Shown here piece after piece: positions 3,923 through 61,688 of a DNA stretch of 64,000 nucleotides. The DNA lies in contig OZ014425.1 in assembly GCA_963965975.1 (NCBI GenBank), positions 67,001 through 131,000 on the forward strand, given 5' to 3'. The notes beneath the pieces are model-generated. The model saw nothing but the letters and a program-made list of their open reading frames with translations, was not told the origin of the DNA and ran no database searches. Every line of letters begins with the position of its first letter. The stretch's first letter is position 1. The stretch is from Xestospongia bergquistia (lineage: Eukaryota > Porifera > Demospongiae > Haplosclerida > Petrosiidae). Made by a program: the position numbers and the translations under genes.

Positions 3923-4001
3923 TAAATATACCTATTTATAGCATGCATATATTTTCATTGTTAGTATAACATAACCTTTGTGGTTACATGTGGTTTGTAG
4001 C

Positions 4002-6774
4002 ATGGATCAGATTGACTCTGTCACTTTGAGAACTTTACAAGGTTTAGCCTCTGCTTTGAAAAAGGCAGAGGCCATTAAGTCTGGGGAACCACCACCACCT
4101 GATGATAAGCAGGAAACATCATCTTCAATTCAAAGGAAAGAGTTCCAATGGGATGAAGTTCTCAAGTGGTTGGTGGCAGCCATTTTTGGTTTGACATTAC
4201 TCAATGTATCTGCTGATTTCTTTCGTAATTATACAGTAACTTGTTATGTTCCTAACAGTACTAGTCGTGATGATGTCTCTTATATTAACAACTACTGTCA
4301 CTCTAGTTTACCTAGATCAGAATACTTCACTCTGTTTATTATAATTCATGGTTTTCTGATAATTGGACCACATGTCTTGTGGAGGACTATGTTTGATGCA
4401 AATTTCCATTTTTTCTTTGATCTTGTCTCTAATCTTGATCGATTAAGAGAAAGTTCTAGTGGAAAATATTCACAAAAGAACTTTGAAATTATTGCTCGAT
4501 TAGAAGATGAATATACTAGACCTGTTGTCATCAATTTATTAAAATGGCAAATCAATCTACCATCAATTTATGCATTCTATCTTATTAAGCTAATTGTTCA
4601 GTTACTAGCTGTCATTGGATCTATTGTCTTCATTGGAATATTTTTTGATGACTTCTCAGAAATGTTTACTTGTCCAACTCTTTCACAACAAGCTAGCATT
4701 ATTTCTGATCCCAGAAGATGGCCTATTTCACACTCTGTTGTATGTGTTTATCCCTCTCTTCGTTTTCTCTCTCTGTTACGTTATGGTGATCTCATTCTCC
4801 TTTGTTTGATTGCTATAGTACTTATCTATGCTTTGTTTTGGTGCCTATTACGTCATACTGAACAACTAGGTCACAAAAGTATTGCCACTTTTTGCACCCG
4901 TTCTAATTTACCACAAGATAGTTATACCTCCTGTAGTATCTTAAAGAGCCCCTTCACTCCAGGAATTAGAACTGATCTGGACTTCTTAACTTTAATGTTA
5001 TTTCGTGCTAGTTCTGGACGAGGAGTGACATTTAAAGAACTTCAAATTATAAGAGAAATGAATCGTCAATATGATCGTGATGGTGAATTATTACAGCTCA
5101 TTATCAATCACAATGCACAAAGAGCAAAAAGAGAAACTGATGCTGAAGAGTGTTTTAAACAAGCTGGGTTTCGCTGGAGTGTTAAAGTTGACTTTCGCGG
5201 TTCACCACGATTTCAAGTGGAGTCTCAAGCAAAGCCATTGCTTGGACTAGTAGATATGGTAAGATTTACTAACTGCCAATATGCTATATAATTGTCTTTG
5301 TAGGAGAGATCTCCTACTAAAATTGAAATTAAAAGTATTTCATGTGATTTACACAGTGCTCAATCAAAACAAATTGACCCACAGGGCCAGTTTGAGGATT
5401 TCTTCCGAGTCTTATTTAATAATATAGGTGGTCAGCCTGATTTTCCTAAAAAACAAACAAAATATCAACAATTTGATGCTCTCAATTCTACTTTAAAGTC
5501 TGTTGATTATCAATACATGTTAAATCAATGGTGTACTGAAGGTGAAGGAAGAGGAACTCTAAGATTGTTGCAATTAACTTTGATAGATCAAGGTTATCCA
5601 GAATTAGCTGATAAGTGAGTTTTAAATACAGTAGCAATTTATAATTGTCTTGTAGAATAACTAGTGGAGAGTTCTCCAAGACCTCTGCAAGTGACAAGAA
5701 AGTTTTGAGTTTTCAAAACCGAGTATATGGATTCTTACAACTGGTCAAACCTCATCGTCCTGATCATCATCGTCTGTTAGCTGTAGATGTCTCTTTTGAT
5801 GGACTTGGTTGCTCATTTATTTTAGCCTGGGTTTTTAAAAGTGTGAGTAAATAATTACTATTATATTTTATCTATACTAACCAGGTTTGTGTATTGAATT
5901 TTCATTCTCATTATCGCAATGACAAAGAAATAGTGGAGCTAGATCGTCTTCACAATCAAGTTAGTATCATCACATTGCCAACAAATTTTTATTCTCTGCC
6001 AGCTAATCCTAATAACAATGTAAGACAAAATGATTCCTATTGTTATTAGTTGTAATTAGTTAGATCAATGTTTGGATGACATTTTGTTTATTTGTCCACC
6101 AACTGGAGATGACAGGGTAGCTCAAAGAAGTGGCAAAGATGACTCCGATGACTACTATATTAATTTTTTTACAGTGGGTCCAATTACACAAGATGCACGA
6201 CATGTTACTGGTAATGATACTATTTTTATTATAATATAGTGACTATCATCTATTCAGTAAACTTATTATTGGAGAAGTTTCAAAATGGTATGGACATTGC
6301 TCACAATTGTCTAATGTTAACAATAAGACCATTAAAAATTGCTGGCAGTGATGTTACACATAAATTTTTACGTTATATACCACCTTCTGAGTAAGTCATA
6401 GTGCTACATCATACAAAAATAGTGTTTCTAGTCTTTTTAAACCAATAGGTTCTAAAAAACAGGAGAGTGAAACAACAATTGTTCAAGAGCAGGAGAGTGA
6501 AACAATAATTGTTGAAGAGCAGGAGAGTGAAATTCAAATTGTTCAAGAGCAGGAGAGTGAAATTCAAATTGTTCAAGAGCAAGAGACTGAAAGACAAGTT
6601 ACTGAAGAACCTAAGTCATCCAAATTTATTGAAACAATGGACGATTTACAAAAAGCAATTGGACCTTCTTCATATTGTACTGTTAATGGTGAAGAAGGTA
6701 TCATATGCTATTGTGGAGATGTAGAGTGTGTTATAGAAATGAAAGTATATCGTTATGTTGGAGAGAGACCATAA
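4002..6774 (+). CDS. LRRC8/pannexin-like four-TM channel protein 1 with novel C-terminal domain
   Basis: The first exon (to about 5260) encodes a cytosolic N-terminus, then four hydrophobic helices at roughly residues 55-75, 110-130, 190-215 and 255-280. A TM1-proximal extracellular loop reads TCYVP...YINNYC and a second loop carries paired cysteines, as in the pannexin/LRRC8 fold. After TM4 come LLRHTEQLGHKSI and TDLDFL...LF segments that parallel the LRRC8 linker. No leucine-rich repeats follow. Instead, exons from 5305 to 6774 encode an alternating strand/helix domain (LLAVDVSF..., FTVGPIT, LTIRPL, ending CVIEMKVYRYVG) that I do not recognise. Start chosen at MDQIDS (4002), just after a TTTGTAG acceptor-like site; an in-frame ATG lies at 3978. 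The paralogue is immediately downstream. Likely a large-pore or volume-regulated channel, by analogy only. Confidence 0.7.
6455..6600 (+). repeat. In-frame 30-base coding repeat in channel gene 1
   Basis: About five tandem copies of a 30-base unit encode Q/E-E-Q-E-S-E-x-x-I-V decapeptides in the C-terminal tail of the channel-like protein. The second paralogue lacks them. The unit is glutamate-rich and probably a disordered or coiled spacer; copy number may vary between alleles. Confidence 0.85.
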
Positions 6775-6951: not shown

Positions 6952-9908
6952 ATGGCTGCAGAGTTAGTTACCAAAGTGGCATCTAGTGCAGTGGAAAATT
7001 CAAGAGCAGATAAGCTTGTTTTCGGGGACAAGCCTCAAACAAGTGATATAATACCAGAGAAGTCAGACTCTACATCTACTGTTGGTGGTAGTGGTGATAC
7101 ACCCATTACACCTAAAGATTTCTACTGGGATCAAATCCTGTTTTATCTTGTCTCAGCAATTTTGGGTCTCAGTTTTCTTGACATTTCAGTTGAGTTTTTT
7201 CGTGGTTCTGTTATCCAGTGTTTCACTCCAAGCAATCTTACACGTGATCAAATAGCTTATGTCAATAACTTTTGTTATAGTAGTCTACCTAACAGTCAGT
7301 ATTACTTAATCTATATCCTTATCTCTGCAATATTAATTATTGCTCCACATTATCTCTGGAACTCATATTTTGGAGCTCATTTTGATTTCTTCTTTGATTT
7401 GGTAAAGAAACTTAATCGTTTACGAGATAGCTCTACAGGAGAATACAACCCTCTTAATTTTGAGCTTGTTAAGAAACTAGAGCAAAAGTTTTCAAAATCC
7501 AACACGTGGATATTTCGCTTGTACAAGTTGAAGTTGTTAATTCAACTAATAATTAGTATCGTTGTCCAATTAGTAAATGCTTTTTACTTTCAAATAGATG
7601 ATTTTAACAACAGTTTTACTTGTCCTAAAGATTCTGTTTCTCTTAATTCTAATATTTGGCCAATTAATGAAGAGCTTACCTGTGTATATAGTTCATTGAC
7701 TTTACTTTTATTTTTACGCAACACTGCATTTGCCTTAGTATCTGCTGCTATTTGTGTTATTATATTTGGTTTATTGTGGTGCTTTAGTCGTCATACCACA
7801 GAATTAGGTGCTAAGGACATTGCTACATTTTGTGATGTATCGTGCCTTCCTCCTGAAGATTACCCTTATCCTTCAGCTCGTAAAGTTTTCAAACAAATTC
7901 TTTGCTGTGGTCAAGAAGAGGATCTCCACCAATATACGAAAGTGAGACAAGCAGAAAACTCTCTTGAAGAAGTCATTGAAGAACAAAGTGCTGAAGTAGA
8001 AGGTTCCCTCTCTTGTTTTGATGGATTATGGAAGGGTCTTAAACAAGCCTTTTCTCCTCGAATTACTAATGATCTTGACTTTTTATTGTTGAGGTTATTT
8101 TATGCTGACTCTGGTCATGGACAAGTGTTTAAAGATATTCAAGTTCATAAAGAGTTAACATACAAAACAGCTCAAGATCATGAGCTACTTTTTTTATTGA
8201 ATATAGTTCATGGAGATTTATTAGATAAATATCTAGATGAGCTTGAAGGTTAGTGTAACAATTTCATACAATCTATGACTCTATTACAATCCTATAGCTG
8301 AGGAGGATAGAAAGTTACAATTACAAGAACAAGGACTACCATATACTCCACTACCACAGACTGAAGAACAAAAGGAGTGGGAAAGACTCACAGATCTTCA
8401 AAAATATTTTTATGAGTCTGGATTTGGTGACACAAGTCCTGAGGAACAAGTTTATTCATATTTTGAATCTCAAATGGGAATTACTCTGAAAGATTGGGTA
8501 AGCAACATATCATTTAAATATTATATTCTCTTGGTTTTAGTCTCATTCTCCTCTGAGAACTGTACTACTCAGTTTCCTGAAATTTGCACCTAAAAATAAA
8601 TTAGCCATTGACATTTCCTTTGGAAATAAAAGTGGTTATTCACTTGTGTTAGCAAGAGCATTCTATGAAGTAAGATTTCAAATACCAACTAACAATATTC
8701 ATATTTTATAATCAGGTTGTAACTATACACTTTAATAAGTATTACCAAAATCCAAAAAAAGTATGTAAAGTGGATCAATATCAAGCTAACTATCGCACAT
8801 TTACATTTCCTGCTGATATCTTCAGTCAAAACGCTTCAAATATAAATGAAGTAACAGTTACTCTATTAAAACATAATGTGTTATTGTTTCTATAGGCACA
8901 AAAACTTGTTATGGAGTTGTTTCAACGTCAAACTAGAAACAAACGCAAAGTGGATCTTATCATGATAGGACCTATTACAGATCGATCCAAAATAGTGACT
9001 GGTACATTCCCTATGTCTCTATAGACTATATTATCTGCTTGTCTCTAGCCAATGTAATGATTGAAAAACTATATACATGTAAGGAATACTTCAATAAAGA
9101 TGCAGTACTTATTGCTGTTCGACCTCTTATGATTGGAGCTAAACCAAGAACAGATCATTTTATTCAATATAAACCTCCTAGTGGGTATGTTATACTGGTT
9201 TGAACCAGTTTATTTTAATATACTTCTACGAATTCCTACTATACACTATGACTACTATGTTATTACATGACATAATTCTCTTTAAATAACTATGAATTCT
9301 ATTACTGCAGCATTTTTGAGGACATTGGTAATGAGGTTATTGAGAAGCTAAGAGACAGTAATGTACCACTTTATTCTGTTAGTTCTAAAGGAGATATCAA
9401 ACTAGTTGATCTATCTTTACCACAACAAGACACTCCACCCACACTACCTAATGGGGAATATCGTAAATTTTCTTCCACATCATCTGGTGTTCAACGAAGA
9501 CGTTCACAATCTATGATGACAAGATTACAAAGTATTATTCAACCAAAAGATGAACCATTGCCTTATGGCATAGCAGTTCAATGTAACAATATCCAGTGTA
9601 TCTTTGAGTTCAGAGTATTCCGTTATATTGGACGATATGGTAATGAAGAAACCCCACCCCCTTCTAATGAAGTTACAAATGAAAACCACTCCCCTTTGCC
9701 TCTTGATGTACCAATAGAGCGACTAGTATCCCCACTAGAATCATCATCATTCCCTTTATTAAGCAATGCGGATAACAATTTGAGTGATACCAGACGATCT
9801 GAGCCATTGTTACATGGAAGTGTAGATGATCTCTTTTCCTGTCATGAAAATAACAGGGCATCTTCTGATAATGATCTCTCAAGACCATTAACAAACAATA
9901 ATGACTAA
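6952..9908 (+). CDS. LRRC8/pannexin-like four-TM channel protein 2 with novel C-terminal domain
   Basis: A tandem paralogue of the preceding gene with the same exon plan: a long first exon (6952 to about 8249) holding four membrane helices, then several small exons. The first extracellular loop reads IQCFTP...YVNNFCYSSLP, very close to its neighbour. TM2 contains APHYLW and is followed by HFDFFFDLVKKLNRLRDSS. After TM4, RHTTELGAKDIATFC and NDLDFLLLRLF match the LRRC8-type linker. The C-terminal domain aligns with that of paralogue 1: LAIDISFGNKSGYSLVLA, VDLIMIGPIT, LIAVRPL, then IQCIFEFRVFRYIG. It has a longer Ser/Pro/Asn-rich tail ending at TAA 9906-9908, with an Arg/Ser-rich stretch around 9490-9510. 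No leucine-rich repeats are present. Function in anion or metabolite release is inference. Confidence 0.7.
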
Positions 9909-9992
9909 GACATTATACATACACAATACTAGATATCAATGAAGTATAATAACAAATTTTAGGATTATTTTTGATGTGAGATTTTGGTCATT

Positions 9993-10255
9993 TCAATGAT
10001 TTGATCCTGGTTTTCTTCTTGATAATAGATGTATTGGACAGTGTCTTAATTTACTGGAGTTAATACAGGAGTCACATAGTGGATGTAACTCATAACAATC
10101 AAATAATATTATATTATAAACTGTAGTAGTCTCTTTACAGGCTAAACATAGTCCTTGATATGACTAGAAGGAGAGAAAAGATAGAGAATTAACTTCAACT
10201 TATTTACCATAGACATTTTGCTGATGCTGATATTAGTATAACTTTGTTGACTCAT
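9993..10255 (-). CDS. Small cysteine-rich protein, array member Z (two exons)
   Basis: Exon 1 (10208-10255) ends ATGTCTATG before a GTAAAT donor; a 44-base intron follows; exon 2 is 10163 down to the TGA at 9993-9995. Read this way the protein is 72 residues if the upstream in-frame ATG (10255) is used, or 59 if translation starts at MSM (10210), which matches the three-codon first exon of the other members. Exon 2 has a CxxC, then HPLC..C, then HCPIH: a probable zinc-binding module. It is nearly identical over about 165 bases to member F at the other end of the array. I do not recognise the family. It converges with channel gene 2, 84 bases away. Confidence 0.6.
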
Positions 10256-10935
10256 GATATTCCATACTTCCTTTGATGTCATACTATTCTAATAATTAGA
10301 TAGCAAACAAAATAAATCAATTCTCTATAGAAAGTGTTGTATCCACTTTACATTAATAAAATATAGCATTACATGACTACATGTAGTTGAGATCATCTTA
10401 AATTAATACTTATATTTGAAGATACTAAACAAATTATGATGCTATTGGATTATTAAAATTTGTTGACCACTTCATGTAAACAGTGGTGCAATAAAATGAT
10501 AAATACTGTCATTCACTAGTCTATACTGTCGTTATTATGAACAAGTATGTACTTCAAAGTACATGTACATTATGACATATATACATGTACATGAACATTA
10601 ACATGTACCTTATACCATATATGGACATATACTTTATATGTTATTATAGTACTTCAATGTAATATTGTATTGTCTGATAAGGTTGAATTTATAATAGACA
10701 GTGTGTGTTAGGCCAATCCTTTTACATTTCAGTATTTATCACTCATGTCAAGAAGCTGCAGTGTTACTGGAGTTCAGTTTGTGTGTAGCTAATATTTAAT
10801 ATTCTGATCTTTTGATATACTGGACAGTGCATTTATTGGGACATCCAAGGACAACAACCAGCAATACAACATGTCTCCTTTGTAAGTATTGTTTAATTGT
10901 TTTATTCAAAGACAATACATACTTGATACAATATA
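10256..10935. repeat. Non-coding spacer with palindromic TACATGTAC block
   Basis: No convincing gene. Bases 10540-10740 hold a degenerate copy of the block that recurs through the array: overlapping GTACTTCAAAGTAC and ACATGTACAT palindromes, then a conserved TATTGTCTGATAAGGTT and TTAGGCCAATCC. It lies 5' of member Z and 3' of member A. The left part, 10260-10530, is AT-rich with nothing I can identify. Confidence 0.6.
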
Positions 10936-11422
10936 CTAAAGATTAAATTCCAAAAGTTCCAAAAGTTCACTTTTGCTTTCTGAAGTGAGAGGATTTTTAT
11001 CATGGTTGCAAGTTTGGTTCCTCAATGCACAGTGACTGCAGTATTGAAATTTGTGATTACATGGAGTATATGCAAGTGTAATGTGCTCATTTAGCTTGAA
11101 ATATAAGCTGCAGCACGTACATTGTTTTGGTCCACGACTGTAAGTTAGCTATAATAGACTGAAAGTAATTAATTTCATGAAATATTCATACCAAAGATGA
11201 AGGAGATTTATCTTCATAAGTTTGTAGTACACGACCCAGTCTTTTGTTGTGTTTCTTGCAATGCTTACATACATCAATATGCCTCTTCTTGTATTCATAC
11301 CTATTCTTTGCATAATAAACTTGACAACAGCCACATTTAGACGGCTTGAGAGATTGAAATACATCATTTTAAGGATTTCTCCAGTAAGGCATGCAATTTG
11401 TCTCCAAACTTACTGTAGCCAT
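10936..11422 (-). CDS. Small cysteine-rich protein, array member A (three exons)
   Basis: Exons 11414-11422 (M-A-T), 11192-11344 and 10936-11148, all joined in phase 0, give 124 residues. Exon 2 encodes CGCC...C..C spaced by about 22 residues; exon 3 encodes CTCC...H.F.YC..CA and a second C..H pair, followed by a Ser/Glu/Leu tail. The acceptor for exon 3 (TATTATAG) was chosen because it keeps phase and matches member D position for position. The spacing suggests two zinc-binding modules, by inference; no family is recognised. An ATG 140 bases upstream of the start opens a seven-codon ORF closed by TAA, unlike the longer upstream ORFs of B-D. Confidence 0.6.
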
Positions 11423-11574
11423 TGGTTAAGTCCAGTATCTGACTGTATATAAGAAAATAACTATACAAACATAATATCATTACATTCAAAAATTACTGAT
11501 TTTCTATACCTTAGCTAAAAAACCAACGTACTTTCTTCTTATGGAGTCATTCTACAACTCATCCCTTATATATT

Positions 11575-12075
11575 CTTTGGAACCCATTTTAATTACGTCA
11601 TCTAACTTGAAATTAGTTTAGGTTTTCATGGGAAAGTTACCGTTGCTAGATAGACATTATCTTTTCAGATCTTGTTTGCTATGTCCTCTTTCCAACGTCT
11701 GCTATCAGTAGATCTTGGAATGTCCGAACATTCTAGCATATTCCTATTTGATACTACCCATTAATCATATGATAAGTACATTCAAAAGAGCGGGAGGTAT
11801 TTATGACCACTTTATGTCAGCAGTGTTGCCACCGAAACCAAAAGCAAGTATAGCTTCTTTAGAGACCCATTATCTGATATGTACACATAATTATGTACTA
11901 TAAAGTACATGTGCATTATGAGATGCAAAGATATTTTAATGCACATGCTGTGCATGTACTATATATGTCTTTAATATACACATTGTACTTTGAAGGTCAT
12001 CATAATGTATTAATGTACTGCTCATGAGTTTGGTTTATGGTAGATAGGCCATTACATTCCTCTATTTATGGTAAG
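11575..12075. repeat. Array spacer: conserved upstream element and palindrome block, copy A
   Basis: Bases 11593-11600 are TTACGTCA, a CRE/bZIP-like octamer present at the matching place 5' of most members. It is followed on the plus strand by a degraded copy of a roughly 250-base element that forms an open frame in other copies but is broken here. A palindrome-rich stretch of TGTACTTTAAAG/ACATGTAC type covers about 11880-12010, then the TTAGGCCAATCC-like end. This spacer separates members A and B. Confidence 0.6.
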
Positions 12076-12217
12076 TGAAATATCTCTGACTCATCAGAAG
12101 TAATACAAATTGAATAAAGTTTGAAGATTTCTTTTTACCAAAAAAAGTGCATTTTTCAATTATACTCCTTTAGCACACTAATATGTACTTTAATGATTTA
12201 ATAAAAATTATATCCTG

Positions 12218-12673
12218 TCAGCATTGTTGAATGAATTTCCAGAGATCATTCTTGCTCGATAAAGTGAGATCACTGTCATCTTTGGGGCTTCTTTTATGTT
12301 TCTGTGCACAATTACAACAATACTTAAATTCATTTTCATCATGAGCACTGGAACCTTGATATTCAAGTGTAACAAGATATGTATTGCGTTGACAGCAGTC
12401 GCATTTCTGATCATATCACTAAAAATAAAGATTAAAAGACATTGATAGTTTCTGTATTGTTTCTTACCGAATGTCTAGGATTGTTTCGAAATTCTATGCA
12501 ATTTTCACAGAGCACGATATTATACCATTGATATTTTGCTTCATAAAACTGACAACATTGACATTGTCGTTGACTTAAACTTCCTTGCCCATAGTACTTG
12601 AAAAACTAAAATACATCATTAAGCTACATTTTGCTAACATATATATACATTAGTCAAAACTTACTGATGCCAT
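12218..12673 (-). CDS. Small cysteine-rich protein, array member B (three exons)
   Basis: Exons 12665-12673 (M-A-S), 12468-12605 and 12218-12406, all phase 0, give 111 residues. Exon 2 carries CQCCQ...LCENC and ends in NPRHS; exon 3 carries CDCC...YCCNCA, then KRSPKDDSDLT and a lysine/tryptophan tail. The exon 3 acceptor used is GATCAG, because the nearer TTTTTAG would put a TGA in frame. The exons are closely related to those of member C. An upstream ATG at 12722 (MSSRIPPLENL...) opens a frame that overlaps the start in another frame. Probable zinc-binding protein; function unknown. Confidence 0.62.
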
Positions 12674-12744
12674 CATCTAATTCAGGAACAAGATTTTCTA
12701 ATGGAGGTATTCTACTACTCATAATTTATATGTTGTTAGTAACC

Positions 12745-13265
12745 CATTTTAATTACGTCATGTAACTATAGATCATTATCTACACTCATGGGAAATTGTC
12801 GTTGCTGGATAGACCTATTCCTTATCATATCTCCCTATGTCATCTTTCCACCATCTGTTATCATCTTGTTTGTTGGAAGACGCAAAAATATTCATAATTA
12901 TTTGGTATTACCCGCAGTAGATCATATGATGGGAACGCTCAGAGGAGGAGGAGATATTCATCAACAACTACATGTCAGCAATATTGGGAACGATATTATG
13001 AATACTGTCCACTTTACTTAGTAAGTATGGCTTCTTTAAAACTGATATATTGTATATGTACATGTACATATGGTGCATATGTACTTCAAAGTACATGTAC
13101 TTTAATGTACATATATTACATGTACTTTGTATGTTATCATAGTACATTATTGTACTTATATAGAATTAATGTATTGTCTGATAAGGTTGGGTTTATAATA
13201 GACTGTGCATGTTAGGCCAATCCTCTTACATTCCTTTACTTGTGACTAGTGAAATCATATAACTC
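12745..13265. repeat. Array spacer copy B with plus-strand open frame 12788-13021
   Basis: TTACGTCA lies at 12753-12760, 80 bases 5' of member B's start. A plus-strand frame of 77 codons (12788-13021, starting MGNCRCW) runs through the conserved element; copies C and D of the same DNA are frameshifted, so I treat it as repeat DNA rather than a gene. The palindrome block covers about 13055-13150, followed by TATTGTCTGATAAGGTT and TTAGGCCAATCC. Confidence 0.65.
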
Positions 13266-13359
13266 TTTGTTTTATAAATCCATGACTATTTTTTAATTGT
13301 CAATAATACACTTAACACATCTTATATCACATAAATCAGCATTAAGTGTAACAATAAAG

Positions 13360-13790
13360 TTAGCTTCTTTGTTGTTGTTTAAGAAGATCAGCTTTACCAT
13401 TTGAAGTAAGTTCACTGTCATCTTTAGGACTTTTACGATATTTTCTGGCACATTTACGGCAGAAAGTGTACTCATGAATACCCCTTCCTTCATATTCAAA
13501 TGTAACAAGGTTTTCAACATTGCGTTTACAGCAGTCACATTTCTTAGCATTTTCTGAAAATAAAGATTGTAAACATTAATAGTTTCTGCAATGTTTCTTA
13601 CGAAATGTCTAGGATTTTCTCGAAATTTCTTGCAATTTTCACAGAGCTTGGTCTTTGTATCCTTTGACTCATAATACTGACAGCATTCACATTGTGGTTG
13701 ACTTAAACTTTTAACCTTATAGTATTTGAAATATTGAAAAACATTTTGCTAACATATATATATATATTAGTCAAAACATACTGATGCCAT
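13360..13790 (-). CDS. Small cysteine-rich protein, array member C (three exons)
   Basis: Exons 13782-13790 (M-A-S), 13602-13748 and 13360-13542, phase 0 throughout, give 112 residues. Exon 2 carries CECCQYYESK...LCENCKKFRENPRHF and exon 3 CDCC...YTFCRKCARKYRKSPKDDSELT. The first intron is only 33 bases. The exon 3 acceptor (ATGCTAAG) was chosen to keep phase and to match B. Member C is the closest relative of B, suggesting recent unit duplication. An upstream ATG at 13839 again opens an overlapping frame. No recognised family. Confidence 0.62.
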
Positions 13791-13854
13791 CATCTAATTC
13801 AGAAACAAGATTTTCTAATGGAGTTATTCTACTACTCATCCTTTTATGTTGTTA

Positions 13855-14300
13855 GTAACCCATTTTAATTACATCATGTAACTTAAGATCATTATCTACA
13901 TTCATGGGAAATTGTCGTTGCTGGATAGATCTATTCTTTATCACATCTTTCTGTGTCATCTTTCCAGCGTCTGTTATCATCTTGTTTGTCCAAAGACTTA
14001 AAAATATTAATAATTATTTGGTATTACCCGCAGTGATCATACGATGGGAACAGAGGAGGAGGTGGAGGTATTTATCGACCACTACATGTCAGCAATATTG
14101 GGAAAACATTATGAATACTGTTCACTTTACTTAGTAATATGGCTTCTTTAAACCCGTTATTTGGTTTATATATGTACTTTAAAGTGTATGTACATTTTAA
14201 TGTACATTATGTACATGTAATTAATATAATACTTACTGTACTATATTATAAGGTTTTGTTTATGATAGACAGAATATCTTTGACTAATCCTCTACATGTG
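13855..14300. repeat. Array spacer copy C
   Basis: The octamer is altered to TTACATCA (13869-13876). The conserved plus-strand element spans about 13880-14134 but is frameshifted near 14030 relative to copy B. The palindrome block (GTACTTTAAAGTGTATGTACATTTTAATGTAC type) at 14165-14240 is shorter than in the other copies. Confidence 0.6.
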
Positions 14301-14397
14301 ATATAAAAAAATTATAAAAGTCTTTATCTTATTTAGTTTCTAATATAGCAGCTAAAAATATAAAGTGTCTCTTATTATCACAAAAGGTACAATATAA

Positions 14398-14873
14398 TTA
14401 TTTATTTTGTGAAAGAGCTCTTTTAGCAGTCAAAGTAAGAGAATTTCCATCAATATAGCAAGTACGATGTTGTCGTGCACAATTTTTGCAGAAGTTAAAT
14501 TCATGATAGCACGGAGTGTAGTCAAGTGTAATGAGCTCTTGTTCCCAAGAATATAGGTTACAACACTTACATGGTATCATTCCAGGACTAGCAGTACCCT
14601 ATAATAAAACAAATTAAATATACCACATTCATAAAATTCTCATACCAATAATGGCTCTTTGTCAATGTATGTAAGAAGGACAGGACCAAGGTCTCTATGG
14701 TGCTCATTACAATTAGTGCAAAGATTGATAGTCTGGTACTTATATTTTGTATAATAGACTTTACATCCGTCACACACTGGTGGATCTGAGTTCTTGAGTG
14801 ATTGAAATATATATCATTAGGAGGATTTCTCCAGTTAAGACATGCATTATGTCTCCAAACTTACTGAAGCCAT
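14398..14873 (-). CDS. Small cysteine-rich protein, array member D (three exons)
   Basis: Exons 14865-14873 (M-A-S), 14646-14792 and 14398-14598, all phase 0, give 118 residues. Exon 2 carries CDGCKVYYTKY...LCTNCNEHH; exon 3 carries CKCC...CYHEFNFCKNCARQHRTC and a lysine-rich tail. It pairs with member A (shared LG.VL.TY.DK and the SxG..PxC.CC start of exon 3) as B pairs with C, so the array seems to contain two alternating subtypes. The upstream ATG at 14976 opens a long overlapping frame that reads through exon 1 and intron 1 out of phase with the protein. Confidence 0.65.
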
Positions 14874-14994
14874 TGGTTAAGTCCTGTATATAGAAAGCTC
14901 TAACAATACCAGTTAATATACTTTCAGTTAATATCAACGTACTGTTCTTATCTAATGGAGTCATTCTACGACTCATTTCTTTTATATTCTAAGT

Positions 14995-15535
14995 AATCCA
15001 TTTTAATTACATCATGTAACTTAAAACTATTTTCTATTTTAGACTTTTACGGGAAACTTGTCGTTGCTTGATAGACATTTTCTTAATTGCATCTTGTTTG
15101 CTGTGTCACCTCAGTATCGGCTGTTATCAGCAAATCATCATGTTTGTCCGAAGACTTAAATATATTCATAAGTACTTGGTATTACCCATAGTAGATCATA
15201 TGATGGGAACGCTCAGAGGAGGAGGAGGAAGTATTCATCGACCACTACATGTTAACAATATTGGGAAAGATATGAATACTGTTCACTTTACTTAGTAAAT
15301 ATGGCTTCTTCAAAACTCATTATTTGATACATCATATGTACATGTACATATGTACTTTAAAGTACATGTACTTTAATGTACATGTACCTTGTATGTCATC
15401 ATAGTACTTTATTGTACTTATATAGAATTAATATGTATTGTCTGATAAGGTTGGGTTTATAATAGACTGTGTGTGTTAGGCCAATCCTCTTACATTCCTC
15501 TACTTGCGACTAGTGAAATCATATAACTTATTAAA
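14995..15535. repeat. Array spacer copy D
   Basis: Contains TTACATCA at 15007-15014, the conserved plus-strand element (about 15045-15295, open from 15068 but with a different N-terminus from copy B), then the longest palindrome block (about 15335-15420), in which GTACTTTAAAGTAC is flanked by ACATGTAC units. It ends with TATTGTCTGATAAGGTT and TTAGGCCAATCC. Confidence 0.65.
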
Positions 15536-15687
15536 TCTATTACAAATTCTTTTTATTATGAAGTAATTTTTATCAAGACATTTTGATGTCATTAATACAT
15601 AACTCAACATGTGTAATATTCAAAATATTGTAAACAAAATAAAGTAAATGTAGCAAGAAAGTAAAAGATTAATAATTAATATTATAG

Positions 15688-16049
15688 TTATTTTCTCATT
15701 CGTTGTTTTAGTTTCCTAAGATCATCTTTACTATTTTCAGTCAGCTCACTGCCATCTCTAGGACTTTTACGATGTTTTCCAGCACATCCACTACAGAAAT
15801 TATATTCATGGAAACCAATACCTCTTGTCCCTTTATATTCAAGTGCTATGATGTCGTTAACTGGAGGATATTCCCGACAAGAGTCACATCTTTTTCCACG
15901 ACGATATTGCTAAAAATACAATTACATATCAATAATAATAAGTAGTTTATAATAAACTGGACCTTTCCATGTCTTAGGGAACTTTCACAGGATTTGTATA
16001 AACTATTTAATAGCAATAATAATATTATCACAGAATATACCTTAGACAT
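15688..16049 (-). CDS. Small cysteine-rich protein, array member E (two exons; middle exon decayed)
   Basis: Exon 1 is 16041-16049 (M-S-K) before a GTATAT donor; exon 2 runs from 15909 to the TAA at 15688-15690. The 76-residue product has a single module: CDSC...GFHEYNFCSGCAGKHRKSP, then SELTENSKDDL and a basic end. That matches exon 3 of members B and C. Inside the intron, at about 15965-16010 on the same strand, a decayed piece (SCES...RHG) resembles the end of exon 2 of B and C (LCENC...NPRH), so this member appears to have lost its first module. Confidence 0.6.
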
Positions 16050-16134
16050 TCTTGTTTATAGCACAGAAAATGGTCTTCAAAAGATATTTATGATAAATCA
16101 AATATATACAATGTCATTTTTATATTATTTGAAA

Positions 16135-16500
16135 CTACATTTAAATTACGTCATATAACATGATACTATTTTAGGCCTTCATGGGAAACTAGTCGTTGCT
16201 TGATAGACACATTTTTATCGTATCTTGTTTGTTCAAACATTAACGAAACATTCGTTTCTGGTAATACCCAGAGATCATATTGTGAGAACGTTTGGAGGAG
16301 GAGGAGATATTCATCGACCACTTCATATCAGCAATGTTGCGAAAGAAATCATGAATATTGTCCATTTACTTAGTAAATACGGCTTCTTTACAACTAAATC
16401 TACAATTACATATACATATGTACTTCAAAGTACATATATACATGTACTTTAATGTACCTGTATATTATGAAATATAATGGAATGTATCATTACCTTCTCT
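16135..16500. repeat. Array spacer copy E
   Basis: TTACGTCA at 16146-16153, 97 bases 5' of member E. A shortened, frame-disrupted copy of the conserved plus-strand element spans about 16180-16380, followed by GTACTTCAAAGTAC and ACATGTAC palindromes at 16415-16460. This is the last copy; none is seen 5' of member F. Confidence 0.6.
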
Positions 16501-16579
16501 TCCTATGGTACTGTTGATAACAACTGTAAAGTTTATTGTTACTTCAATAAATTTTGTATAATTTGAGAAATAATTAAGT

Positions 16580-16850
16580 TCAATGTTGTCCTGGTTTTCT
16601 TCTTGATAGTAGATGTACTGGACAGTGTCTTAATTTACTGGAGTTAATACAGGAGTCACATAGTGGATGTAATTCATAACAATCAAATAATATTATATTA
16701 TAAACTGTAGTAGTCTCTTTACAGGCTAAACATAGTCCTTGATATGACTAGAAGGAGAGATGTTGATGTAGTAACAGAACACTATATGAAGTATTAAATG
16801 CAATTAATGAATGTAATAATGAATTATATAACTATTCTTACTTGAGACAT
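16580..16850 (-). CDS. Small cysteine-rich protein, array member F (two exons)
   Basis: Exon 1 is 16842-16850 (M-S-Q; an in-frame ATG two codons upstream at 16856 is an alternative). The donor is GTAAGA; exon 2 runs from 16747 to the TGA at 16580-16582. The product is 58 residues with CxxC...HPLC..C...HCP, almost identical to member Z 6.5 kb away, differing at only a few bases across exon 2 and into the intron acceptor. First in the array in the direction of transcription. No recognised family. Confidence 0.6.
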
Positions 16851-16856
16851 TTTCAT

Positions 16857-17316
16857 ATAACAAAGCAGCTATAACTTTTTTGCAGTCAAAAAACCATAGG
16901 AATGAACCTGGTTGCCATGGTAACATGTAATGTATGTAATGTCTCGTAAGGTGGGTCATGTGGTAAAGTCTATCTTTAATTCTAAATTCATCAGTAACAT
17001 ACCATATAGTGTAGTACTAACTAACAGTACTATAATAGTGTGTAGTATGGAAGGTTGTCTTAGTCTACAATACTGTAGTATTGAGGGTTGTCCTTAGTGG
17101 CGGACAACACTTGAAGTCCATTAGATCAAATTAAATGGCTTCAAAATACTTTATCTGGAAACTTTGCAAAAACATGAATTATAACTAATTCAATAACCAC
17201 AATATTAATTAACTGAAAAGCAATGAATTATTAACAAGAGAAGTAATAAAATCAAATGTACAATAAATATCAAAAACCTAGTCAATAAAACAATGTCCCT
17301 ATTTATGATAATGTCA
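16857..17316. other. Intergenic spacer between the cysteine-rich array and SEC31
   Basis: I see no gene. The stretch is AT-rich, holds a short repeated GTAGTATGGAAGGTTGTC / GTAGTATTGAGGGTTGTC pair near 17040-17095, and serves as the 5' flank of member F and the 3' flank of SEC31. Confidence 0.5.
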
Positions 17317-20300
17317 TTAAACTCTTAATTGCATTCCTAATTGCAGGAGTGTTTTAATTCCTGGCATAAAGGAGGTGATCTCAGAGAGATTACTAGTAGA
17401 TACCATGTGATTTAAACGCACTAGACCTCCTGAATAATTAATAGCTTGAGTATCTAATAAAGAGAGAAAATAAAAAAGTGTGTAGACTCCACCCACCTTG
17501 AGCAATAGCATGTAATCCCTGTAATATATCTGGTGAGAGACGTGATTGACGCAATAGATCATACATGTGATCTAATTTACGTCCAATATCATCAACTTTA
17601 CGACGCATTATCTAATGAATAATAACATAATCCATTATATTATAATAGCATCACATTATTATGATATTACATTATATAGTATTACTTATATAGTATTACA
17701 TTATAAAGCCATTACAATATATTATAGATACTTACATTGTTATTAGCTCTAGCTTTACATTGAGTTAATAATCCATTAAATATTGTATAAAGTAGAATAT
17801 GTTCTGATGGTATGGGCTGTTGTTCAACTGGTGTCATTGGACTAGGAGGCTAATAAAAGTGGGTGGAGCAATAATTAATGTAAATTAATCAACAATTATT
17901 TTACTTGTTGAGGTGTAGTGGGAGTGGCAGGTTTAATATTAGTGGGTGGAACAGTAGGAGGAGTTTCACTAGGAAGCATTAATGGTTGCAATGGCTCCTG
18001 AGTTGCTAATGGAGCTGTTAAAGGAGGGGGTGGAGCTACATAACCAGATGACTAACGAGATATGATAATTAATAATAACTTCATAATACCTTCTTTGTCT
18101 GTCTTAAAACAGGTGGATCATTCCATGTAGTACCAATATTACTACCAGGAATAGATATACCACTAGTGGGTGGAGACTGAGATAATAATTGAGTGGATGG
18201 GATCATCATATTAGTAGTAGCATGTGGCTGTGTGGGTGGAGTCGGTATCATAGTTGGCTGAATGGGTGGAGTCGGTATCATAGTTGGCTGAATGGGTGGA
18301 GTTGGCATCATAGTTGGCTGAATGGGTGGAGTTGGTATCATAGTTGGCTGAATGGGTGGAGTCGGTATCATAGTTGGCTGAATGGGTGGAGTTGGTATCA
18401 TAGTTGGAGTCACCTATGTATACATGATAGTCACTATGGCAACATTATGTCACATGTACCTGTGAATAAGGACCTACAGGATGTCCACTGTGGGTTCTTC
18501 CCATTTCAGTATATTGATAAGAGGATCTCAGTCCTCTTTGTTGAGCTATTATTTCTGTGTTATCATGTAAAGGTAATATATTAGGTGTAACTGTAGGAAC
18601 AATAGCTGGAGACAGAGGTGGTAGGACATCAACTTGTTCAAATGGAAATTGTGGGGGTTTACCCATTTTCCTATCTCCTAAACACCTGTATAACCTGTCA
18701 TACAGGATTCCATTACTAGTCTATAAAAGATCAATAAACTTAATAACCAGTTAAACCAGTTATAATTACTTGTATTTCTTCAATTTGTTCTAAATATTGG
18801 AGAGCAGTTTGTAAAGATCCTTGTGAGATCAGTAAACTTGAATATTTACTATAAAACACATTATGTATATAACTTAGTATTTAGAGTGATGGAAAACCTT
18901 AATTTTTCCACTAACAAAGGGTGATTCATAGGGGTCACCTCGTGTCTTCCCATCCTAACAGCTTGACATAAAAGTACAACTTTTTCAATGAGATCTTGGA
19001 GTGTCAGGGGATCAATATTATTGTCACATGACTTCATACTATAATGTCATATGACTTATCACATGATATGTCACACGATGTACTAACCAGCATTCAGTAA
19101 ATTTGTTAATATTGCCAGAACAAATGTAGCACAATGCAGCATTGTCATGGCAACCATCCTTTCCCTCATCTTCCAGTCTCTCTCCTAATAAATCTAATTA
19201 GGAAATAAAAAAAATGAAAACAAGAAAACTTTGTAATTTACCACAGAGTGTGGCAAATTCTTCAGAACTAGAATATGTCACTAACAAAGCCAATATCTCA
19301 CGCCAGTTATCCAGGTTCCCATACTGGACAATTTCAGACCAACTCCTACTGGTAATTAATGAAATGAGCTATAAATTAGACAATATTATTAATTGAAAAT
19401 CATAATATTATAAAATACTTGAGTAATTGTAGTTTTGTTCTTCTCAAAAAAAAGTCGTTGAGTTGATTGAAATAACTCAGCTCCTCCAGCCACAGATAAT
19501 ATGAGGGCTTCACTCTAATTATATGATAAGTCACATGACTTGTCACATGATATTATTAAACGTACCATTTGATTATTAGATATACAAATATCAACAGCTG
19601 CTTTAAAATTACCCACTAATAAAGCTGTAGTGAGGAGTCCATCAGAAGTGTCTTCATTAGTAACAAAAGATACACTTGCATCTATAATGTATAATGACCA
19701 TTTAATATAAGGAGGTGTGTCCTTACCTTTAATAAGAGGGGGTGTGTCTAATGGAATACCTGAAAGATCATCAAATGCACTAGATGAGGAAGGACCTACT
19801 CGTTAATGATAATCAGACCCATTATTGGAATAACATCTTTACCTTCTAGTCCAAATAGTTCTGCTGTTGTAACGCCATCTTTGGTATCCTTATCTTCTTC
19901 AATCAGCTGACTATTGTCTTCATCTTCTGAGAGTGGGAGAACTGCTAACTTATCTTGTAGTTCATCAACATCTAGACTTTTAGCTCCAGGTGGATCTTGT
20001 GACCCCACCCACTCAGTAACCTATAATTAATTACATACTATATATGGTATACCATTATATTTAGTACTTTTTCAGCTATTTCTTCAGGACTAAATCCCAG
20101 TAATTGAAGGTATTGACGACGAGGCTCAGGGTCAAAGGTCGCCTAAAGATAACAATAAAATGATATATTGAAAACAAGTTATTTTACTTTTAGAAAACTC
20201 CAAATTGTTTCATGAGAAGTAGTTGATGTTAACTTATTAGTACAATATTCAGAATAGAGTTGTTGATTGATAGCTTCTTCAAATTCCATCGATTGTTGAA

Positions 20301-58700: not shown

Positions 58701-61688
58701 TTTGAATGAAAACAAATAACTTCAATGCACATGAGGGTTAATTGAACCATACCAACCTGAGCAGTGGTTTGATATTGAACGAAACTAGCAAAATTGAATC
58801 CGGCCAGCTTCCAATCGCCATGACGACTAATCAGGATGTTGTTTAACATGAGGTTCCCATGCATCATTTTAACATCATTATGCAAGAAATTAAGAGCCTC
58901 GGCAATTTGTAACAATCCATAATGTGCCTCCACAGTATGTAATTGATATTCCTATACAATAATAGAATTGGAGTAACTCCTCTACTATTATCATTAGTGT
59001 ATTATTAAAAGGTGATTTTAACAAAACTACTCACATAACAATTATGACAAGTATGTAATCACACACACTATTAATTTAATAGTAGTAAGTGTTAATGGGG
59101 TAAGTCCCCATGTTCAAATATCAATGGTGACAAACTGTTATTTAATTAGTGCTCAGAGCCATTCAAAGCAGACGTTGTTCCATTCAATGCAGGACTAAAA
59201 GGAGGCGATTCAGGACTATTTTGAGTGTGAGCCTCGTCAGCAGAATCAATGCTAATTGTGTGAGCTGCTACCAATGTACTTCTGCTAGGTCCAGAGCTAA
59301 ATCCAGATGGCATGTGACGAGGTAATGTTCCAGTGTTTATACTACCAGCTGCAGGTGTACGAGGTTGATTCCCTTTTAACGTGACAGAGGAGACACGAAT
59401 TTTTAGACAATCATCACGAACAAATTCAGTATCTTTATCAGGATTATAACTCAAGTCACCATGAGCGATAAACTGTGTAGGACCATTGCCTTCCTTAGCC
59501 ATTTCTTTATCAATAACCCTATTACAAACACCAGGAGGAGTGTCTTCTGTAAAACGTATAACCTTTTGATAATGTTGACGGTCGCCTCGTTGGTTTAGTA
59601 AATGGACAGTAACATTACCAAGAAAAGGCCAGTCCAATTCATCGTCATACTCACCTCGAACAATATACAAGAATACAGACAAATGAGAGCCTTTACCATC
59701 TAATACTCCATTACAAAATACAAACATTCCCAATTTATAACCACCAACATGAGAGTAGAAAGGTCGACTGTACCACCATTTACCAGACTGACGTAACTGT
59801 TCAAATTTGTTTATTGTGAACGTGATAGGAAGAGGATTAGGTATAAATTGACGAAGACGGCTAATATCTCGAGTTAGGGTGTGGTTTTGTTGTTCCATGA
59901 GAGACAAACGTTGTTCCTGAAGGTCAAGAGAACGTCGCATTTTCTCGAGTAAAGCATGTGTATTTCCATCTTGGTCTTCTTTCTCGCGTCGAAGTTGTTG
60001 AACTTGTAATTTGAGTTGTCGTATTTCCTGATCTTTTGATTTCAAAAATTCTTCATCAATTCCAACATTTTTAGGTACCACTTCAGATGGTAGGGCTTCA
60101 ATTTTGTCTTCAACTTCTTTCTTAAAGTCAACAAATGCAGCACTCATCATTATGATGTGACTAGCAATGTTTTTCTCCAAATGAGCTGGAATATTTTTAC
60201 GTTGAAGTTTGTCTTGACAACCAGCAAAGCTCACAGCACATGACACGTTTTCTTGATACTGACATTTATTTTTCACATGGTCTTCCAACTGAGAGCGAGG
60301 TACAGTCCTTTCTGGACACTTATTGGGACAAGGGAGAGGATAACCAGGACACGTTGGGAAATGATCACGTTGAACATCCTCAAATATTCCCTGGTTTTCG
60401 CTACAATATTCACAGGTATATGGTCGTTTTAAACAACGATTTTTAGCATGCTCCTGCAGTACTTTTCTGGCATATTTATCTCCACAATTATGAGGACAAG
60501 ATAGCTTTATAAAAATACATCCAGACTTATTGTCTTTGTCAATATGGCGAGGTAGCTGTTCTAACCTACCGAACCAAAGACAGCCGTCAGTAACGTGCAA
60601 ACAACGAACATACAAATCGTTAACATTACGTTGAGAGGATTCGTCGAGTACTATTTCCCACGAATCTTCGCTGCAACTGGGACAAGGACCTCCTGTCGTC
60701 TTGTCGAGACATTTACGGCAATATGTCGTACCACAACAAGACGTCTTGTGCGGGTCTCTAAAGACTTTATTGCAAACAGGACAGCATAACTTGACAGGAG
60801 GGAGCTCAGTAAAATCTACTGACACTTCGTCCAAATCGACTATAACTTTACTGGAAGTCGCCATAACGTTTTGTCCAAATTTGCTGTTTTCTTCGTGTAA
60901 ACGTGAGGTATCCTCCCCCACAATATCGCCACGACCCAGTATTATAAACTGATCATTACAACTCACTGTGGAAGAGATGCCACTTCCAATTACTCTCAAA
61001 TAGTTAAAATGCAATAACAATGACCAGTAGATTTTTAAAATACTGACCAAATTAAAACATGTGATAAGTTTCAGCAATAACAATAAAAATAAACAACACT
61101 TAACAACGTACACATTACAATAGAGGTATGAAATACTATATCCCTCAATTTGAATATTTATTATTATCTATAATTTACCTTAATTACTAGGGGCAGAGGT
61201 GTTGGTAAGTTGTCATAATAACCAAGAACATTAGCCAAACTTGCAAAGACAGGTTCGGTTGTGAATGCAATACAATCACTAAATAAAATAACTCGTAAAA
61301 TACAACATATTATATCCTACATATAGTAGATGTACCTTGATTCTTCAACTGGATGATCAATTGTAAGGATTTTAGGATGTCGGAGACGTGCTAAATGGGT
61401 GGGGCCTCGTTTTAACATTTCAAAAAGTACTTCACGTTTTTTCTTTGGTATCTTCTCAATTTCAGGAGTTTGCTTGTAAAATATAAATACAGAAACTTCC
61501 TAAAATGGAAATTATGGACATAAACTCCACCCACATTCATTTAATACCTGTTTTGTTGACTTTTTAATTCCATTATAAACTTTCCAAAGCAAGCCTGGTC
61601 CAGCACTAGCAACATGTTTGACTAACTCGTACTCTTTGAGGACTGGGTTACCTACAATAGCAGTCTTCAACTTACCTAAAAAAGACAT
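55764..61688 (-). CDS. SCYL2: SCYL2, clathrin-associated pseudokinase
   Basis: Exons upstream of 61182 give the N-terminal pseudokinase lobe (GPGLLWKVYNGIKKSTKQEVSV, PVFASLANVLG); the frame resumes at about 58955 (EYQLHTVEAHYGLLQIAEALNFLH). The catalytic HRD is HGN and DFG is replaced by AGFNF, as in SCYL2. HEAT-like repeats follow (58.2-57.1 kb), then a coiled coil (KMEEQTKSTVEFAREVAENKA), and a C-terminal Gly/Met/Gln/Ser-rich tail ending in NPFADFNSLL, including an NPF motif. SCYL2 works in clathrin trafficking between Golgi, endosomes and plasma membrane. The intron 58956-61181 is very large for this window because it contains a complete TRAF gene on the same strand. Head-to-head with the TM7SF3-like gene. 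Confidence 0.93.
56040..56340 (-). repeat. Tandem coding repeat in SCYL2 tail
   Basis: Two nearly identical 105-base units plus partial flanking copies encode GTTNMGMELMQPQTHS and LTGWSSDISKTMQPHS segments. DNA identity is close to complete between the two full units, indicating recent duplication in a disordered clathrin-adaptor tail. Confidence 0.88.
59146..60864 (-). CDS. TRAF-family adaptor, intronless, nested in SCYL2
   Basis: An uninterrupted frame; the start chosen is MATSSKVIVDLDEV (60864), because upstream in-frame sequence to 61113 is hydrophobic intron-like filler. 572 residues: RING finger at about 25-65 (CPVC...CCGTTYCRKC...CPSC), TRAF-type zinc fingers (CLH...H, CPHNCG, HAKNRCLKRPYTCEYC, CPGYPLPCPNKC), a coiled coil (LKLQVQQLRREKED, LEKMRRSLDLQEQRL), a MATH/TRAF-C domain (TFTINKFEQL, WWYSRPFYSHVGGYKLGMFV), then a Ser/Pro/Thr-rich tail of about 60 residues after the TRAF domain. 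Such proteins link TNF-receptor and Toll-type receptors to NF-kB and MAP kinases as E3 ligases or scaffolds. Lack of introns and its position suggest a retrocopy inserted into a SCYL2 intron, in the host's own direction. Confidence 0.92.
   Translation of the reverse strand: MATSSKVIVDLDEVSVDFTELPPVKLCCPVCNKVFRDPHKTSCCGTTYCRKCLDKTTGGPCPSCSEDSWEIVLDESSQRNVNDLYVRCLHVTDGCLWFGRLEQLPRHIDKDNKSGCIFIKLSCPHNCGDKYARKVLQEHAKNRCLKRPYTCEYCSENQGIFEDVQRDHFPTCPGYPLPCPNKCPERTVPRSQLEDHVKNKCQYQENVSCAVSFAGCQDKLQRKNIPAHLEKNIASHIIMMSAAFVDFKKEVEDKIEALPSEVVPKNVGIDEEFLKSKDQEIRQLKLQVQQLRREKEDQDGNTHALLEKMRRSLDLQEQRLSLMEQQNHTLTRDISRLRQFIPNPLPITFTINKFEQLRQSGKWWYSRPFYSHVGGYKLGMFVFCNGVLDGKGSHLSVFLYIVRGEYDDELDWPFLGNVTVHLLNQRGDRQHYQKVIRFTEDTPPGVCNRVIDKEMAKEGNGPTQFIAHGDLSYNPDKDTEFVRDDCLKIRVSSVTLKGNQPRTPAAGSINTGTLPRHMPSGFSSGPSRSTLVAAHTISIDSADEAHTQNSPESPPFSPALNGTTSALNGSEH

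Follow-up and report, generated by a model that had tools for sequence, protein, structure and literature searches.

The question raised by a 64,000-nucleotide stretch of the sponge Xestospongia bergquistia (assembly GCA_963965975.1, contig OZ014425.1, positions 67,001 to 131,000; hereafter the window) is whether a row of very small Cys- and His-rich coding segments at 9993-16850, on the minus strand, represents genes and, if so, what kind of proteins they encode and how these have diverged. The contig (C15) is 5.4 Mb long and belongs to a genome of 146.46 Mb in 21 contigs (G000), so that the window is G000:C15:67001-131000. The segments form seven genes, Z and A to F, designated here array 1.

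Gene models and coding evidence

All seven genes were rebuilt to one common model, in which an ATG exon with nine coding bases is followed by a phase-0 GT-AG intron and by one or two Cys/His exons; the ATG-to-ATG distances are 801-1251 bases. That every gene fits the same exon/intron model bears out the tandem array proposed in a preliminary description of this DNA, and the tiny first exons and phase-0 introns proposed with it also stand, the rebuilt models behaving as genes. The acceptor of gene A exon 3 was revised relative to the initial model. The earlier reading MAS for exon 1 of B and C is upheld as to the ATG exon itself, but a second in-frame ATG lies just before it and the exon may encode MMAS. 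The models are as follows.

16842-16850, minus: gene F exon 1 (MSQ); gene model
16580-16747, minus: gene F exon 2, eight-ligand C3HC3H finger, C-x2-C-x13-C-x3-H-x2-C-x2-C-x8-C-x2-H; model and motif
16041-16049, minus: gene E exon 1 (MSK); gene model
15688-15909, minus: gene E exon 2, C-module and conserved tail; model and alignment
14865-14873, minus: gene D exon 1 (MAS); gene model
14646-14792, minus: gene D exon 2, N-module (CxxC...CxxC); model and alignment
14398-14598, minus: gene D exon 3, C-module; model and alignment
13782-13790, minus: gene C exon 1 (MAS; in-frame ATG immediately 5′); gene model
13602-13715, minus: gene C exon 2, N-module; model and alignment
13360-13542, minus: gene C exon 3, C-module; model and alignment
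12665-12673, minus: gene B exon 1 (MAS; in-frame ATG immediately 5′); gene model
12468-12605, minus: gene B exon 2, N-module; model and alignment
12218-12406, minus: gene B exon 3, C-module; model and alignment
11414-11422, minus: gene A exon 1 (MAT); gene model
11192-11344, minus: gene A exon 2, N-module; model and alignment
10936-11148, minus: gene A exon 3, C-module; model with revised acceptor
10208-10216, minus: gene Z exon 1 (MSM); gene model
9993-10163, minus: gene Z exon 2, C3HC3H finger; model and motif, DNA 97% identical to F exon 2

An acceptor-like site seen by eye shortly 5′ of the ATG of A and D suggests an intron in their 5′ untranslated region. On inspection, without a predictor, none of the seven proteins has a hydrophobic N-terminus.

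When six frames were compared, the proposed frame was the best conserved in eight of eight exon pairs (the F/Z pair was left out). The nonsynonymous divergence (dN) is below the synonymous divergence (dS) in all 13 estimable exon pairs, only just so in exon 2 of B and C, where the two are about equal; dS is saturated in 4 of the 17 overlapping pairs. A lack of excess synonymous change between paralogues had been named at the outset as grounds for rejecting the genes, and this comparison does not reject them. Three alignment searches of 5.8 billion proteins, two at E values up to 1 and the third up to 10, returned 8, 1 and 5 proteins, in all ten distinct relatives (P0001-P0010), none with a Pfam domain or a name. 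By our reading P0001 and P0002 correspond to B, P0004 and P0008 to A, P0007 to D, P0010 to C, P0003, P0005 and P0006 to E, and P0009 to F; five hand-aligned stretches are 74-82% identical. Because frame conservation, substitution pattern and database relatives agree, the array-1 models are genes with exons under selection on the frame. P0002 (against B) and P0010 (against C) appear frame-shifted by eye, from the proteins alone, so some copies may be broken. P0004, known as a protein alone, reads L-L-Q, and the frame of gene A through intron 2 reads L-L-stop.

Two apparent classes of module

Genes A-D encode an N-module followed by a C-module, and E a C-module only. When their profiles (five and four sequences) are compared, the two modules prove similar (hhalign probability 85%, pairwise E 6e-6), which fits an origin by internal duplication. 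Invariant in the five C-modules are C, C, Y, C, C, A, D, L, T, K and L; the longer C-terminal signature described previously (H-E/K-Y/F-x-F-C-x2-C-A and onwards) is complete in C and E and incomplete in A, B and D.

The eight-ligand finger of F and Z looks like a module class separate from that of A-E: the A-E C-module scored only 8% probability against a mixed F/Z/P/Q alignment (P and Q are introduced below), a weak indication, as this alignment misplaces the first Cys pair in some rows. On this evidence the earlier view that Z and F keep only the cysteine part of the A-E type may have to give way to that of a distinct class, and the idea of one family of seven is retained only in that F and Z are tied to A-E by position, tiny first exon and phase-0 intron.

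Related modules continue outside the window in a second array (array 2), which was reached through weak matches of F (E 0.03-0.04; F and Z are 33% identical to Q). It lies on the plus strand at C15:57-63 kb, 14 kb from array 1 and just outside the window, and comprises three units of about 2.34 kb that start near positions 18, 2359 and 4699 of L016 (C15:57001-67000). Each unit has a tiny ATG exon (MCHK, MDNPQ and MGNSQ, by eye), preceded like that of A and D by an acceptor-like site (by eye), then a P exon and, 3′ of it, a Q exon. P and Q both carry an eight-ligand finger, giving six matches; in P the first pair is C-x4-C and ligand six is His. F, Z and array 2 keep strictly to the spacing, and the pattern has eight matches in 104 kb of host sequence, all within the two arrays, and none in 30 mononucleotide shuffles; since the pattern was written from these same sequences, the result demonstrates rarity rather than an independent prediction. 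With a looser cysteine pattern, ordinary RING-like sequences are matched too (C15:44057, C15:53399 and window 60673). Parts of the array-2 unit are repeated at L016 7637-8195, overlapping a kinesin-like frame (L016 8502-8083, minus; by eye).

Comparison with known domains

The preliminary description recognized no known family, in agreement with Pfam, where 0 of 16 queries reach a cut-off. None of three proteins exceeds a cut-off in NCBIfam (E against TIGR02179, E 0.0071, 16.4 bits against 60), and Rfam gives no match over window 9000-18500 at gathering scores. The best E value in a PDB sequence search was 0.15 for the C-module profile, and F had no match up to E 10. The 288 PDB matches of a P exon (the listed ones antibody chains, best E 2.4e-4) were taken as chance, because in the alignments shown single stretches have E values of at least 4 and the common part is only a Y/F-x-C..H run. 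Among the papers listed by literature searches none concerned the family, which is not proof of its absence from print.

One likeness is to binuclear RING-like treble clefs (RING, B-box, ZZ), which also place eight Cys/His ligands in about 40 residues, and F, Z, P and Q share their C-P-x-ligand ending. The RING finger spacing is C-x2-C-x(9-39)-C-x(1-3)-H-x(2-3)-C-x2-C-x(4-48)-C-x2-C. F, Z and Q match these spacings but end in His, so that they are C3HC3H whereas RING is C3HC4, and P deviates also at the first pair (x4) and at ligand six; moreover, the array proteins are tiny and stand alone, with a putative fold. F stays below the profile cut-off (zf-RING_14, 15.6 bits against 26.6). AN1 domains (ZFAND proteins, yeast Cuz1) offer a second likeness, since P exons begin C-x4-C and have Phe directly before the penultimate Cys (F-C in three of three). 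One AN1 study gives the ligand set of the domain as C6H2 and notes a conserved Phe that precedes the penultimate zinc-binding cysteine (PMC5035049), whereas P has five Cys and three His ligands (C5H3). Against the Pfam AN1 cut-off of 27.9 bits, P2 reached 17.6 and P3 13.4, and P1 had no match.

It is conceivable, though we consider it quite unlikely, that F, Z and the array-2 proteins are RING/AN1-type modifiers of the ubiquitin-proteasome system, which would recruit E2, ubiquitin or the proteasome, or block that recruitment as stand-alone domains. The ligand order C-C-C-H-C-C/H-C-H, the C-P-x-H ending and the weak profile matches (zf-RING_14, E=0.023 for F; zf-AN1, E=0.0044 for P2 and 0.085 for P3) agree with this, as does a passage in one account according to which RING-like treble clefs vary in ligand motif and several serve the ubiquitin system (PMC4506424). 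All scores nevertheless lie below the curated cut-offs, the last ligand is His rather than Cys, none of the 17 matches listed by a genome-wide AN1 search falls at a P exon, and the A-E modules have no such similarity.

Promoter-like elements

Upstream of A-E lie the following elements (positions relative to the ATG).

11538-11600, minus: promoter-like elements of A; TGACGTAA at -178, TATATAA at -150, CTCCATAAG at -124
12698-12760, minus: promoter-like elements of B; TGACGTAA at -87, TATAAAT at -57, CTCCATTAG at -33
13815-13876, minus: promoter-like elements of C; TGATGTAA at -86, CTCCATTAG at -33, no strict TATA
14952-15014, minus: promoter-like elements of D; TGATGTAA at -141, TATAAAA at -113, CTCCATTAG at -87
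16118-16153, minus: promoter-like elements of E; TGACGTAA at -104, TATAAAA at -75, no CTCCAT match

A TGA[CT]GTAA site is present in A-E; we take TGACGTAA to be a bZIP-type site. A TATA match follows it by 28-30 bases in A, B, D and E, a nearly constant spacing, and CTCCAT[AT]AG, found in A-D, lies 24-26 bases past the TATA in A, B and D. The three array-2 units also have TGACGTAA and TATAAAA, at a wider spacing than in array 1. In a survey of Amphimedon, about 26% of the promoters have a TATA box, with a peak about 30 bp before the start (PMC4773876). Array 1 is of tandem origin, with promoter-like elements common to A-E.

On the plus strand the 5′ units contain open frames of 91-92 codons that share their last residues (12743-13018, 13859-14131 and 15020-15292), the second of which differs in mid-frame (by eye). 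A palindromic GTACATGTAC-rich stretch at 13020-13150, and similar stretches, also have matches on C1, C5, C6, C11 and C14; this promoter-distal stretch is partly a dispersed AT-rich repeat, and its similarity is therefore left out of the argument.

Unequal divergence of exons and flanks

The first 360 bases 5′ of the ATG are 88-93% identical between B and C, and the next 240 bases 73-78%; the introns are 89% and 83% identical, exon 2 77% and exon 3 66%. Because dS is 1.44 in exon 3 and 0.28 in exon 2, B and C seem to be mosaics with two halves of unequal age. Between A and D, intron 1 is 88%, intron 2 70% and the exons 61% identical. F and Z share a block (16580-16760 and 9993-10176; 185 columns, 97% identity, three gaps) that runs from 13 bases before the exon to just past the stop, with unrelated flanks; it is possibly a single-exon copy or the product of gene conversion.

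Viperid three-finger toxins are secreted and disulfide-bonded, whereas by eye the array proteins lack a signal peptide and their modules look intracellular and zinc-binding; no homology is claimed. The viperid genes for such toxins are alike in mode of evolution only, as a small multi-exon family with similar intron segments and differing exon segments, for which one study proposes exchange of exon segments (PMC2474615).

Between the near-identical units 2 and 3 of array 2, the P exon has differences at 10 of its 141 bases, every one in a codon that changes the amino acid, nine codons in total (NG86 dN 0.088, dS 0.019). The flanks differ at 11 of 946 positions (p = 1.8e-5), and the rate in the exon is six to seven times theirs. 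The contrast persists when the Q exon, which has no differences in 146 bases, is removed from the flanks (11/800, p = 7e-5) and, with Q still removed, when the nine codons are counted as single events (p = 3e-4). Units 1 and 2 are 93-100% identical in adjoining bins and about 65% identical (186/285) over the gene body including its untranslated parts, the P protein of unit 1 being 41% identical; this fits an old divergence kept while the flanks were homogenised. Among the E types (E, P0003, P0005 and P0006), 17 of 37 finger columns are variable and none of 22 in the tail (p = 7e-5), with 4 of 9 variable in the last residues; for the three relatives of E alone the finger and tail counts are 9/37 and 0/22 (p = 0.02). 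For array 1 as a whole, positive selection was weighed but is not claimed, dN being below dS. The evidence for adaptive change consists of a single exon compared between two units, plus four related proteins; array 1 is mostly under purifying selection. The preliminary description had noted neither array 2 nor the common promoter elements nor this contrast in divergence between exons and flanks.

These patterns leave appreciable room, short of an even chance, for an ordinary lineage-specific zinc-finger family with housekeeping or developmental roles in binding RNA, DNA or protein, in which divergence is old and constrained, no conflict is involved, and flank similarity stems from gene conversion and conserved promoters. 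The 13 of 13 estimable pairs with dN below dS (4 of 17 saturated), the preserved spacing of the promoter elements and the almost identical F and Z exons speak for such a family; the replacement pattern of the P exon against the low flank divergence of array 2, and the variable finger with invariant tail in four E types, would not be expected of it.

Distribution in the genome

Genome searches found no off-locus match for E at E<=0.001, for F at E<=1, or for Q, B and P at E<=10, and a single one for D (contig C8, E 2.6); since these searches score the best candidates only, more distant copies could escape. The 5′ unit at 12640-13060 has genome matches in array 1 only. As far as the searches reach, the family is limited to this locus in the genome. 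One scan each of a collection of genome contigs and one of viral contigs with the E-type alignment found no relative. We do not claim a subtelomeric location; the contig begins with 5000 bases that read N.

Such confinement to one locus, which begins about 58 kb and ends about 84 kb into a contig of 5.4 Mb, might also mean that the genes belong to a selfish or domesticated mobile element, or that the cluster is decaying. The frame-shifted look of P0002 and P0010 beside B and C and the exon-limited block common to F and Z point the same way; we hold this very unlikely, given that the 5′ unit is matched in array 1 only, that the absence of any Pfam match above cut-off means no mobile-element domain, and that all seven models have an open frame, on which selection acts.

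Neighbouring features

Two single open frames on the plus strand, 3978-5291 and 6952-8253, exceed the cut-off of the Pfam Innexin profile (29.2 and 31.5 against 25 bits). A passage in one sponge study states that the species has no innexin-related genes, 'as for other sponge lineages' (PMC10280926). A genome-wide Innexin search at E<=0.001 gave no match, missing even these two frames, and the controls were likewise without match. At 18195-18434, inside a plus-strand frame (18189-18584), lies a tandem repeat with a 30-base period and six overlapping 90-base copies.

A possible role for the family

The reading that we tentatively adopt, at rather less than even confidence, is that the arrays encode small intracellular zinc-dependent binding proteins with a variable finger and a constant tail, possibly engaged in host-microbe or selfish-element conflict. 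The lineage-restricted family would consist of very small proteins with no evident signal peptide, each with one or two compact modules. The Cys/His residues of these modules presumably coordinate zinc within folds of the treble-clef type, which in F, Z and array 2 would be binuclear and RING-like. Inside the cell these proteins may bind other proteins, as adaptors or as inhibitors. The finger would then be the part that varies and faces the target, and the tail, A-G-K-H-R-K-S-P-R-D-G-S-E-L-T-E-N-S-K-D-D-L in the E types, would bind a partner that stays constant. A TATA box with an TGACGTAA-type site suggests that expression is inducible. Duplication and gene conversion would maintain similarity in the promoter half, and the finger exons would meanwhile diverge or be swapped, an exchange that phase-0 introns would aid. 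The most likely setting would be an intracellular conflict with a virus, a bacterium or a selfish element, for which support is weak.

Several points weigh against this reading. Zinc binding, fold, localisation and expression are all predicted, and RING and AN1 scores remain below cut-off. The P-exon case concerns one pair of units and depends on the flanks; gene conversion from another copy could imitate it, and the all-replacement share within the P exon alone is not significant (p = 0.12). The finger/tail contrast of the E types rests on four sequences. The finger divergence of array 1 looks old rather than adaptive, because most finger exons combine purifying selection with high or saturated silent divergence. 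F and Z are without the promoter elements, and TGA[CT]GTAA, which occurs at 23 sites in the window and is thus not rare, proves little alone. A TRAF-like gene at 59146-61113 is too distant to weigh; no search aimed at nearby immune genes was made. A stronger version of the proposal, an immune or self/non-self effector system of stand-alone zinc-finger miniproteins with a homogenised inducible promoter, exon exchange, positive selection on the finger face and an invariant tail directed to one partner, appears unlikely.

Annotation easily overlooks genes of such small size whose first exons have three codons. In one place, in array 2, the protein changes faster than the surrounding DNA, as is often seen in arms-race genes. 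If the proposed role in conflict is true, intracellular zinc modules diversified exon by exon would be a new kind of defence repertoire; even without conflict, the locus clearly illustrates how promoters can be homogenised while modular exons diverge.

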